NCBI RefSeq assembly: GCF_030913705.1
Contig: NZ_CP133190.1
Span: forward strand, 4,923,501 to 4,987,500
Length of the DNA stretch: 64,000 nucleotides
Direction of reading: 5' to 3'
From: Anaerocolumna sp. MB42-C2
GTDB lineage: Bacteria; Bacillota; Clostridia; Lachnospirales; Lachnospiraceae
Part shown: positions 2-25,692 of the stretch, in pieces
Position numbering within the stretch: the stretch's first letter is position 1
Layout: every line of letters starts with the position of its first letter
The notes under the pieces: generated by a model
Seen by the model: the letters and a program-made list of their open reading frames with translations, nothing else
Told to the model about the DNA's origin: nothing
Database searches by the model: none
Program-made: the position numbers and the translations under genes

Positions 2-916
2 CCGTTAAATAACATGCTGGATTTTTTCGCTGATTTTACTGGTTTTACCTATAGTGTATCCGCAGGAAATGAAGGAAATATGAAACGGCATTTTTACAGT
101 GAAATTGATCCATCAACCAGAAACAGTGTCGTAGAAATGTATGTCGGGGAGGGCGAACTCGGTTTTTCAATGGAAATTTGGGGTAATGCACCTAATACCT
201 ATTCCATTGACATTATGTCTCCGACAGGAGAGTATATACCAAGAATAGCGGAGAGCTTAAGAACTAACCAGGAGATACGTTTTATTTTTGAAAAAACCTT
301 AATTTCGGTTAATTATAGACTGGCAGAAACCTACACCGGGGAGCAGTTGATTCTGCTTCGTTTTCTCAAGCCTACACCAGGTATATGGCGAATACAGGTT
401 TACAGCAGGGGAGATCTTCCTGGCTCCTATCATATATGGTTGCCAATGAATGGATTTATCTCAGCAAATACCTATTTTTTGAGCCCTGACCCGTATACTA
501 CAATTACATCTCCCGGTAATACAAGCACTCCGCTTACAATGACTGCCTATAATCCTGCTAATAATGCTTTATATGAAAATGCAAGCTACGGGTATTCAAG
601 AAATGGTTATATCAATCCGGACCTGGCAGCCCCAGGAGTAGGTATTATAGTTCCGGATCTTTTAAAAGGATTTACCACGGCGTCCGGAACCGGTCTTGCG
701 GCAGCACATACCGCTGGTATCACAGCCATCATGTTGGAATGGGGTATTGTGAACGGCTTCTATCCAAGTATGAACTCTACGGTAGTAAAGAAATATTTAA
801 TCCGTGGAGCCAAGCGTAGTAAAGTGCTTTCATATCCTAATCCCGGCTGGGGTTACGGAATTATTGATTTATACAATGTTTTTAATATATTCAGATCTGA
901 TTTTCCCAGACAGTAA
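2..916 (+). CDS. S8 subtilase-like protein, 3' part, catalytic Ser replaced by Gly
   Basis: This is the C-terminal part of a subtilase; the frame is open to the left edge, so the start lies outside the window and the ATG at 14 is internal. It keeps the oxyanion-hole motif AGNEGN (near 62-79), the inserted beta domain typical of Csp-like clostridial subtilases, and the C-terminal DLAAPGVGI block. At the nucleophile motif, where active enzymes read GTSMA, it reads SGTGLAAAHTAG: the Ser codon is GGT (692-694). It is therefore predicted to be proteolytically dead, like the CspC and CspA pseudoproteases of Clostridioides difficile spore germination. It is homologous along its length to the protein at 1322-3019. 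A germination role is inferred from family resemblance only. Confidence 0.85.
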   Translation, partial: PLNNMLDFFADFTGFTYSVSAGNEGNMKRHFYSEIDPSTRNSVVEMYVGEGELGFSMEIWGNAPNTYSIDIMSPTGEYIPRIAESLRTNQEIRFIFEKTLISVNYRLAETYTGEQLILLRFLKPTPGIWRIQVYSRGDLPGSYHIWLPMNGFISANTYFLSPDPYTTITSPGNTSTPLTMTAYNPANNALYENASYGYSRNGYINPDLAAPGVGIIVPDLLKGFTTASGTGLAAAHTAGITAIMLEWGIVNGFYPSMNSTVVKKYLIRGAKRSKVLSYPNPGWGYGIIDLYNVFNIFRSDFPRQ

Positions 917-1012
917 GTTAGCATAAAAAGAATTATTTTTAAATCAACCCCTAAAATCAACCTTTTGGTTGATTTTTTATTTTGCGCTATTTTGTATGTG
1001 AAAAGATGCCTT

Positions 1013-1141
1013 ATGGATTTTAAGAGGCATATGGGTGTGGTACCTCAGGAATTAGCAATCTATGAGAATCTGAACGCTGAGCAGAATGTTCGTTTTTTTG
1101 CTTCTCTTTATGGCTTAAGAGGCAGGAATTGGAGAAAAAAA
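1013..1141 (+). pseudogene. ABC-transporter ATPase fragment
   Basis: A short in-frame stretch reads HMGVVPQELAIYENL followed by NVRFFASLYGLRG, the Q-loop region of ABC-2 exporter ATPases. There is no Walker A upstream and no signature motif or Walker B downstream, and the frame stops soon after. It is a decayed or recombined remnant. It differs from the same region of the intact ATPase at 6515, so it came from another transporter. Confidence 0.65.
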
Positions 1142-1321
1142 TTTGTATGGTAAACTTGGGGTAAATAACAGAGTTGCAGCCGTAAATAAGGGGAAACTAT
1201 ATTTGAATAATAATTGTATGATATCCAAACGGTGTGAACACATGACAAAAGAGAAAGGACTTATTTAGTCATCATTATTTAACAAAATTCATAGAATTAA
1301 TAAACTAATTATTTCGAGAAT

Positions 1322-3019
1322 ATGGTAACCATGACTGAGTCTGAACGATTTAAGATAACCAGTGATGAATATGCTGATTTAATCATTGATTATAATTATG
1401 ACAAGGGAATATTTGCTCAATATCCTAACACATCCTATAATATTATAAACCAACGTTATGCAGTTTTGAATATACCGGTAAGTGATATGACCTATAATGC
1501 TGTATATAAATATGGTTATGCGTCCATACCAAAATGTTATGGATTAATGTTTGAGTCATCAACTGAGCCGAAAGGTAATTATTATATACATAACTTGCCG
1601 GCCTATGATTATACTGGGGAGGGAGTTCTGATTGGATTTATTGACGGGGGAATAGAATATCGTAATAAGGCATTTCAATATGCCGATAATACTACCCGAA
1701 TTGTTTCAATTTGGGATCAGTCTATTGAAAGTCCTGACAGGTACCCCGCGGATCTATATTATGGAACGGAATACAGCAGGGAACAAATTAATCTGGCATT
1801 GCAGTCTGAGGATCCATTATCGGTTGTACCAAGCACAGAGATCAGCAGCCAGGGAACTGCAATGGCCGGAATTGCCGCCGGTTTCTATAGCAATCAGTTC
1901 ATCTTCTCAGGAACAGCACCCAAAGCAGAAATCGTTGTTGTAAAACTAAAACCGGCTAAACCCTATCTGAAAGAATTTTTTAATATACCGGAAGAAAGCC
2001 TATGCTATCAGGAAAATGATGTAATGATGGGTATTAAGTATCTGCTGCAGGTTGCCATAAGTTTACAACGCCCAATAATTATAGCACTTGGTTTAGCCTG
2101 TAATCAGGGTTCACATATGGGTGAAGATTATATTAGCAAGTATATTTCAGAAGTCGGGGAATTACCGGGCGTTGCAGTTATAGTTGGAGCAGGGGATGAG
2201 GGTAACCGCTATGGGCATTATTATGGTGAAATCAGTTCACCAAATATTTATAATACTGCAGAATTAAATGTAGGTGAGGAAAGTGAGAATTTTTCAATGG
2301 AATTGTGGGGGTATCCGCCTAATCTATTAGCGGTTGATATTATTGCTCCGAATGGTGATTTGGTATATCATATTTCCCTCAGTTTTAGACAATTAAATAC
2401 GATACCCGTTTATTATAATAACACAGTTATTTATATTGATTACCGTTTACAGGAACCTATTGCAGGGACACAATTAATTTTATTAAGGTTTCAAAATGCT
2501 TATAAGGGAATTTGGAGTTTTCAGGTTTCAGGTTCTTATGATTTAGTAAACCGGTTTCATATCTGGTTACCTTTGCATCAATTTTTAAGCAATACCTATT
2601 TTATTAATCCGGATATCAATACTACACTTTCCATTCCGGCAAATACAATTAATATAATAACAGTGACAGCATATAATCCGGTGTTCTTTGAATTATATTA
2701 TTATTCCAGCAGGGGTTTTACGAAAACGAATGAACCAAAGCCCGATATTACTGCTCCCGGTGTCAATATGGTTGTCCCTGCCGGTGTAGATCAGTTTGCT
2801 TATTTTACCGGTACAAGTATGGCATGTGCTTATACGGCAGGGATTGCAGCGCGATTAATGGAGTGGGGAGTGATAGATAAAAATCTGCCTAATATGAATT
2901 GTACCTTTATCAGATATATTGTAACCAGCAGTGCAAGAAGAGACAGTTCCACGAATTATCCGAATCAGAACTGGGGATTCGGGATATTGGAGGAAAATAT
3001 TTTTGGAAGCATAGTTTAA
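1322..3019 (+). CDS. S8 subtilase-like pseudoprotease (catalytic His replaced by Gln)
   Basis: A 565-residue CspB-like subtilase with a short N-terminal prodomain-like region (about 1-95), the catalytic domain split by a beta insertion, and a C-terminal GTSMACAYTAG block. Asp108 (FIDGGIEY) and Ser499 are present. The His motif, GHGT in active enzymes, reads SSQGTAMAG with Gln177, and the oxyanion Asn of AGNEG is Asp292 (GAGDEG). The charge relay is therefore broken. Family knowledge: active CspB processes the cortex hydrolase SleC in clostridial spores, while CspA and CspC are pseudoproteases. No clear Shine-Dalgarno precedes 1322; the in-frame ATG at 1331 is an alternative start. No signal peptide is seen. 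Confidence 0.85.
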   Translation: MVTMTESERFKITSDEYADLIIDYNYDKGIFAQYPNTSYNIINQRYAVLNIPVSDMTYNAVYKYGYASIPKCYGLMFESSTEPKGNYYIHNLPAYDYTGEGVLIGFIDGGIEYRNKAFQYADNTTRIVSIWDQSIESPDRYPADLYYGTEYSREQINLALQSEDPLSVVPSTEISSQGTAMAGIAAGFYSNQFIFSGTAPKAEIVVVKLKPAKPYLKEFFNIPEESLCYQENDVMMGIKYLLQVAISLQRPIIIALGLACNQGSHMGEDYISKYISEVGELPGVAVIVGAGDEGNRYGHYYGEISSPNIYNTAELNVGEESENFSMELWGYPPNLLAVDIIAPNGDLVYHISLSFRQLNTIPVYYNNTVIYIDYRLQEPIAGTQLILLRFQNAYKGIWSFQVSGSYDLVNRFHIWLPLHQFLSNTYFINPDINTTLSIPANTINIITVTAYNPVFFELYYYSSRGFTKTNEPKPDITAPGVNMVVPAGVDQFAYFTGTSMACAYTAGIAARLMEWGVIDKNLPNMNCTFIRYIVTSSARRDSSTNYPNQNWGFGILEENIFGSIV

Positions 3020-25396: not shown

Positions 25397-25692
25397 AACA
25401 TTTACAGGCAAAAGCGTTGACAAGGAGGAGTACTTGCTTATCCTGATGCACAGAGAGAAGATGGCTGGTGAAAATCTTCGTAATGGAAGCAGGGAAGTAG
25501 CCTTTGAGCTTTGGATCCAACGGATAATGCGATTTATCTTAGTAGACTCCAACGGAAATTTCTACCGTTATCAAGGAAAGCAGTATCGGAATTTAATTTC
25601 CCGTACTGACAAAGAGCAGTATTATACTGAATTTAGGTGGTACCACGGACATATCAGTTCGCCCTAAGCGTAAAGCTTAGGGCGATTTTTTT
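25397..25692 (+). promoter_or_regulatory. T-box riboswitch, valine specifier
   Basis: A leader of about 300 nt with the T-box signature AGGTGGTACCACGG (25635-25648), whose bulge pairs with the uncharged tRNA end, directly followed by a GCCCTAAGC/GCTTAGGGC terminator (25660-25692). In the 3' side of stem I the likely specifier codon is GTA (25497-25499), in the context GGAAGTAGCC, which is a Val codon and agrees with the downstream gene. Uncharged tRNA-Val should favour antitermination. Confidence 0.92.

Follow-up and report, generated by a model that had tools for sequence, protein, structure and literature searches.

Csp-type subtilases without complete catalytic triads in Anaerocolumna, probably retained as part of an expanded spore germination family

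Can a subtilase that lacks the residues needed for cutting be kept for a role in spore germination? The question is raised by a locus of Anaerocolumna sp. MB42-C2, whose genus belongs to the Lachnospiraceae. The window, which is the whole stretch of 64,000 nucleotides that was analysed, covers contig positions 4923501-4987500 of the 6.44-Mb single-contig genome (G000 in our set), and it begins with two subtilase genes, here called S4922 and S4925, whose products have incomplete catalytic triads. We propose, with a probability of roughly 0.55, that both proteins are catalytically dead but functionally retained members of an expanded family of CspA/CspC-type spore germination subtilases. At the level of sequence, both proteins lack catalytic residues and belong to the CspA/CspC family, the same losses are present in other species, and S4925 is under purifying selection. 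The features of the two genes, in window coordinates, are:

2..916, + strand: S4922, the first pseudoprotease, C-terminal 304 residues; Ser replaced by Gly, with Asp, His, and Asn intact
692..694, + strand: codon GGT for Gly at the position of the nucleophile Ser (SGTG versus SGTS)
1322..3019 (coding 1322-3016), + strand: S4925, the second pseudoprotease, 565 residues; divergent prodomain region and subtilase domain
1643..1645, + strand: codon of Asp108, the catalytic Asp, which is kept; the next residues are GG, not TG or SG
1850..1852, + strand: codon of Gln177, at the position of the catalytic His
2195..2197, + strand: codon of Asp292, at the position of the oxyanion Asn
2816..2818, + strand: codon of Ser499, the nucleophile, which is kept

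The first-pass annotation of this DNA described two adjacent subtilases with different broken triads. Reading of the GGT codon, which sits within TTASGTGLAAAH, and alignment of the paralogues, the intact ones of which have GTS or GSS at this place, confirmed that Gly replaces the nucleophile Ser in the first protein. The four residues listed for the second protein were also read correctly, and an alignment of the Csp-like proteins of the genome places them in the catalytic and oxyanion columns. The canonical Ser motif, when looked for as a pattern in the window, had no match, a result that was uninformative. The frame that had been taken as the first protein is merely the C-terminal fragment of a 574-residue gene product, encoded at contig positions 4922692-4924416 and starting 809 bases before window base 1. 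Both subtilases are there, and they belong to a row of three, since a 566-residue paralogue with an intact triad lies upstream and ends 45 bases before the S4922 gene. The start of S4925 may be at 1331, not 1322, because its orthologue in Anaerocolumna sedimenticola starts at MTESERF. A sequencing error at the three replaced codons, which the annotation had considered, is unlikely because the Ser to Gly change of S4922 recurs in the orthologues from genomes G008 and G009, and S4925 belongs to a subclade of five members from five genomes, all of which have the His to Gln change together with Asp or Glu in place of the oxyanion Asn.

The best matches of the window proteins in the PDB are chains of Clostridioides difficile germination proteases, 9sj9_B, 9t7m_E, and 9pr9_A (219-253 bits; best E values 5.8e-64 and 6.2e-74), which we read as CspA from the names given by the depositors, the lengths, and the letters. 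The next matches are CspB (4i0w) and then CspC (6mw4), which scores below CspB. The alignment to the CspA chains spans residues 80-557 and is compatible with a jelly-roll insertion; according to the accessible part of PMC6636752, such an insertion of about 130 residues is carried by the Csp subtilase domain. In a tree that includes fusion proteins of other bacterial families, a CspB side is separated from a CspA/CspC side of 119 rows, with a support of 100 in the Shimodaira–Hasegawa-like approximate likelihood ratio test (SH-aLRT). The 96 rows of the genus form one clade (SH-aLRT 99) within the CspA/CspC side, and the C. difficile-type CspA and CspC have a clade of their own (99). The window proteins share with CspB a homologous subtilase domain and a distantly similar N-terminal region, which aligns to the CspB prodomain region with an HHalign probability of 93 at 10% identity, but neither of them matches the prodomain model PF18425. 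Membership in CspB was rejected on account of this missing match, the triads that are not intact, and the deep split in the tree. Both window genes score below the curated cut-offs of the NCBIfam models for CspBA (NF040809; 258-298 bits versus 1250) and CspC (NF040808; 229-280 bits versus 675), which are models of the type 'exception'.

The CspC:CspA heterodimer of C. difficile transduces germinant signals, as stated in the accessible part of PMC12880746. The window proteins resemble CspC and CspA in their side of the tree and in their catalytic losses: Ser to Gly is found in CspC and His to Gln in the protein that we read as CspA. Fusion proteins from outside the genus have an intact triad in their second half in 10 of 11 cases. 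The exception is genome G330, whose proteins we read as C. difficile CspA and CspC. Its CspC has Thr for His and Gly for Ser, letters that match those published in the accessible part of PMC6636752, and its CspA half has His replaced by Gln and Ser by Ala. Because the C. difficile-type proteins form their own clade and the other ten second halves are intact, the losses in Anaerocolumna are independent of those in C. difficile, and they took place in another bacterial family. Genome G402, from the family of the C. difficile-like G330, encodes (L131) two CspC-like pseudoproteases and a CspBA fusion whose CspA half is intact (DHNS); a dead CspA is thus not common to that whole family. The systems also differ in that Anaerocolumna has free-standing genes in many copies, whereas C. 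difficile has one cspBA-cspC locus, and in that the genome studied here encodes a GerA receptor, unlike C. difficile-type systems of organisms without Ger-type receptors. Intact members of the genus are free-standing and have the triad, like the Csps of Clostridium perfringens and other Clostridiaceae and Lachnospiraceae. The latter, however, are described with intact triads in the accessible part of PMC6636752 and as all predicted to be active in that of PMC12880746, whereas a triad residue is missing from 28 of the 96 Anaerocolumna rows. Among the open-access papers listed, none dealt with Csp pseudoproteases of Lachnospiraceae by title or abstract start, a scope that leaves most subscription papers outside.

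The Pfam subtilase model matches the genome 35 times, in many cases with two pieces of the same gene. Fourteen genes encode full-length, free-standing Csp-like subtilases of 555-597 residues with pairwise identities of 40-66%. Nine of these proteins keep Asp, His, Asn, and Ser, and five lack a triad residue: Ser to Gly in two, Asp to Gly, His to Glu, and the His to Gln of the window, which is accompanied by the oxyanion Asn to Asp. The genus set comprised this genome and 14 others, with the matches of G001, G003, G004, G005, and G013 fetched partly. The first 88 family rows of at least 460 residues include 27 without a triad residue and one with an oxyanion change alone; a row truncated before Ser was counted as intact here and dropped from the tree. 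One of nine further rows lacks a triad residue, and with the oxyanion-only row 29 are marked as broken in the tree. The rows left out were L120, which spuriously extends one half of a split cspB, L048, whose frame is broken, the halves of split cspB genes, and L123, L141, and L142_4585, which are partial; the truncated L047 was left out of the tree. Flags for stops inside a gene were not counted, since several mark the genes' own ends (for example, L042 and L083). All 19 proteins without the catalytic His, from 10 genomes, have Glu or Gln in its place and form one clade that includes S4925, with SH-aLRT 99 in the first tree, 98 with more rows, and 98 after removal of the active-site columns and their neighbours. 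The change from Ser to Gly arose or was reversed several times, with at least four label changes forced by the starred branches of the tree alone.

The ratio of nonsynonymous to synonymous substitution rates (dN/dS) was read only for the four gene pairs between this genome and A. sedimenticola (G006) with dS below 1. The values were 0.107 for S4925 (dS 0.63), 0.125 for the dead paralogue with His to Glu, and 0.115 and 0.095 for two intact paralogues. S4925 is under purifying selection like the intact paralogues, and the earlier statement that the window genes had decayed does not hold for it.

The family is connected to sporulation by its promoters and its neighbourhood. Among 87 genes, 29 are preceded by a sigma-E-like motif (shuffled mean 4.2, maximum 10), mostly 42-65 bases before the start, and 9 of 378 control genes have one (shuffled mean 10.4); the 87 include one cspB (L049) and are without L108. 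In another set of 87, made up of family rows only, a sigma-K-like motif precedes 9 of the 19 genes for His-less proteins (shuffled mean 0.3, maximum 1) and 2 of the 68 others. The sequence CATANNNT lies upstream of 17 of the 19 genes (shuffled mean 5.5, maximum 9). Sigma-G-like (9 of 87; shuffle maximum 10) and sigma-F-like motifs (3 of 87; maximum 7) do not exceed the largest shuffle. The first-pass annotation had pointed to sporulation promoters, and sigma-E- and sigma-K-like motifs do exceed shuffles in the family, with little at the two window genes, where the following element was found:

1290..1297, + strand: CATAGAAT, a mother-cell type -10-like element before the S4925 gene, with no convincing -35 found

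Judged by these motifs, predicted synthesis of the family in the mother cell during sporulation is supported, weakly so for the two window genes. Homologues of SleC are encoded in all 15 genomes of the genus; the SleC sequence used as query aligns to the structure of a spore cortex-lytic enzyme in its pre-pro-form (9h68, E 1.5e-93). In six single-contig genomes, 10 of 19 sleC loci have a free-standing Csp-like gene no more than 25 kb away, with a mean of 1.3 in circular shifts and none of 20000 shifts as high. One of these sleC genes is located 14 kb upstream of the subtilase cluster of the window.

Promoters of the mother-cell type are also those of coat genes. The family, dead and alive members together, may be made in the mother cell to process or scaffold proteins of the spore coat or surface and have no part in germination. 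The promoter motifs fit such a role, fourteen free-standing copies are more than a germination switch seems to need, and in this genome a sleC is found within 25 kb of 4 of these copies but not of the other 10. The grouping of the family with CspA and CspC, its prodomain-like N-terminus, and the proximity to sleC above circular shifts over six genomes speak against it, and we regard a pure coat role as possible but doubtful.

The upstream intact gene and a gene of the S4922 type form a couple that recurs in seven tandems of six genomes. The upstream partner is intact in all seven, and the downstream partner lacks a triad residue in five: both tandems of this genome, with Ser to Gly in one and Asp to Gly in the other, and those of G004, G008, and G009. 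The downstream partners of G003 and G005 are intact. Each partner groups with its counterparts in the tree (SH-aLRT 99 for the upstream side and 82 for the downstream side, which contains five dead and two intact rows), and so the tandem predates the loss of activity. S4925 matches three loci in the named genomes, the best of them in A. sedimenticola (NZ_CP048000.1), where the orthologue occupies a matching locus without the couple, between an alpha/beta hydrolase gene and genes of the GNAT, ferredoxin, and PHP types. In G007, G008, and G010, no Csp-like gene is present beside the S4925 orthologue in the approximately 4 kb fetched on each side. S4922 and S4925 share 41% identity, fall into different clades, and are not a couple; S4925 stands alone in these four relatives. 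The candidate explanation that the window genes are recent duplicates of one another was rejected for the same identity and clade placement. Of the proposed divergent pseudoprotease pair, the presence of Csp-type pseudoproteases outside the Peptostreptococcaceae is supported, but a mutual pair whose two members lost different residues is not supported, and the partner of S4922 is the intact upstream gene.

The position of a dead gene directly behind an intact paralogue in five of the seven tandems suits another explanation, in which the dead members inhibit active paralogues or assist in their folding, for example as prodomain donors or dominant-negative subunits, without sensing a ligand of their own. 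Pseudoenzymes often pair with active relatives, as noted in the accessible part of PMC12880746. The S4925 orthologues, which lack such a neighbour in the stretches fetched from the four relatives, do not fit this explanation, and it is unlikely to apply to the family.

Sedolisins have the same fold as subtilases and use Ser-Glu-Asp with an oxyanion Asp; their catalytic Asp is located four residues after Glu. The His-less proteins could by analogy be alive through a rebuilt active site, with Glu or Gln for His and Asp or Glu at the oxyanion position. The exclusive use of Glu and Gln at the His position, the acidic oxyanion residue in the five-row S4925 subclade, and a nucleophile Ser kept in 12 of 19 rows agree with this. 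The remaining seven rows do not have Ser (three have Cys, three Gly, and one is truncated), and the Asp of sedolisins at Glu+4 is replaced by Met in S4925 and in its His to Glu paralogue, which makes a rebuilt site very improbable. Plain pseudogene decay after tandem duplication, for which the broken copies elsewhere in the genus could be cited, can hardly account for full-length open frames, losses in several species, and dN/dS near 0.1 in the two measurable dead genes, and it is contradicted by the selection on S4925.

Several observations weigh against our preferred reading of the window proteins as retained, dead germination subtilases. The dS of S4922 is saturated, and its dN/dS was not interpreted. 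The S4922 orthologues of G003 and G005 keep Ser and fall beside the dead rows, so the Ser may have been lost more than once. Broken-looking family copies, such as G006:C1:1051986-1053646 (L048) with two frames and G001:C369 with two stops, are a sign of birth and death of copies in this family. The structure model of S4925, calculated from a four-row alignment, has a mean predicted local distance difference test score of 45.8; it does not reach the quality needed to show the fold and was set aside. Upstream of the couple, neither a sigma-E- nor a sigma-K-like pattern is present, and S4925 matches the -10 element only. The sigma-E-like motif occurs at 1 of 11 cspB rows. The sigma-K-like motif is present in 9 of 378 controls, above their own shuffles (mean 2.2, maximum 6), and part of this signal is therefore not specific. 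The promoter counts and the proximity to sleC include related sequences with an inherited neighbourhood, the split sleC halves of G009 entered the proximity count as two loci, and the values for single genomes range from 0.006 to 0.18. The genome also contains one GerA receptor gene (558.6 bits), and because this receptor exists, dead Csps need not be germinant receptors.

Family members without the cutting residues are kept across species, which suggests regulators or sensors and not enzymes. By analogy to the CspC:CspA heterodimer of C. difficile, a mechanism can be proposed in which the spore would incorporate the dead members and these would work through binding and not through proteolysis. 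S4922 is probably expressed in one operon with its intact upstream paralogue and would most likely form a dimer with it. S4925 represents a separate, older dead lineage and would most likely act as a stand-alone regulator or scaffold. The dead members would tune when CspB activates cortex hydrolases of the SleC type, downstream of or beside the GerA receptor. The step from a retained dead Csp to a regulator of CspB and SleC is the one that we infer.

As judged from its sequence, the same genome encodes a split cspB and several sleC homologues beside the single GerA receptor. The gene cspB, the only one in the genome with PF18425 above the cut-off, is divided into an N-half at 5629524-5630168 and a C-half at 5645409-5646602 (G000:C1:5629524-5646602; L039, L040) by an element of about 15 kb, which carries a gene for a 555-residue large serine recombinase directly before the C-half. 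The state of cspB varies among the 15 genomes of the genus: seven have the N-half on its own, four have an undivided gene, and four have no clear cspB; the halves of G004 are on two contigs. The six split genomes whose junctions were read share the position of the break, in the codons for GHGTHV at the catalytic His. A short core of 5-14 bases is common to both ends, and joining there restores an in-frame protein of 583-592 residues in all six (the C-half of G012 was missed by the pattern and read by hand). A large serine recombinase adjoins one half in each of the six, and in this genome inverted arms are visible by eye around the core at the element ends. In six genomes, a paralogue of sleC is interrupted at CPGWMTQW by an element, which measures from 2.6 to 43 kb:

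G000:C1:5748168-5752066 (L152): split sleC paralogue of this genome; the others are in G002, G004, G006, G009, and G010 (L153-L159)

Each sleC element carries a large serine recombinase of 481-511 residues. The halves join in frame in five of the six genomes but not in this one, where the ends share only 5 bases, and this split copy may therefore be degenerate. By eye, the elements of G002 and G009 resemble prophages, and the one within the sleC of G004 contains a Csp-like gene whose triad is intact (L159:5476-7185). The accessible part of PMC10747680 lists sigK, spsM, spoVFB, and gerE, besides yabG, as targets of developmental excision. No paper on developmental excision of cspB or sleC was found by title or abstract start in the same open-access literature.

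We tentatively speculate that the germination switch of Anaerocolumna has been rebuilt as a multi-channel one, in which many active Csps are combined with several independently evolved pseudoprotease regulators, perhaps one for each signal. CspB in seven genomes and a SleC in six could be made only after excision by the recombinase. This would presumably take place in the mother cell, and the finished machine would then arise only in the spore-making cell. If the split genes are rejoined during sporulation, germination genes would join sigK, spsM, spoVFB, gerE, and yabG as targets of excision. In published descriptions, germinant sensing by soluble pseudoproteases is a peculiarity of C. difficile and the family to which it belongs. 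Dead Csp lineages arose separately in this genus of Lachnospiraceae, and with the intact orthologues of G003 and G005 they provide a natural before-and-after series, which allows asking what a Csp gains when it ceases to cut. The S4925 orthologue in the complete genome of A. sedimenticola makes the question addressable outside a pathogen.

Three minor observations concern other sequences. The gene at G000:C1:4639629-4641389 (L028) encodes a 586-residue protein with an N-terminal subtilase domain and a sub-threshold match to QhpE-type subtilisin-like proteases (119 bits versus a cut-off of 165). Between the S4922 and S4925 genes, window positions 965-1153 hold a 62-residue open frame, similar in its letters to part of an ABC-transporter ATPase, which we presume to be a remnant. 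A T-box leader at window positions 25408-25669 is the sole Rfam match in the window above the gathering score, with 120.5 bits.

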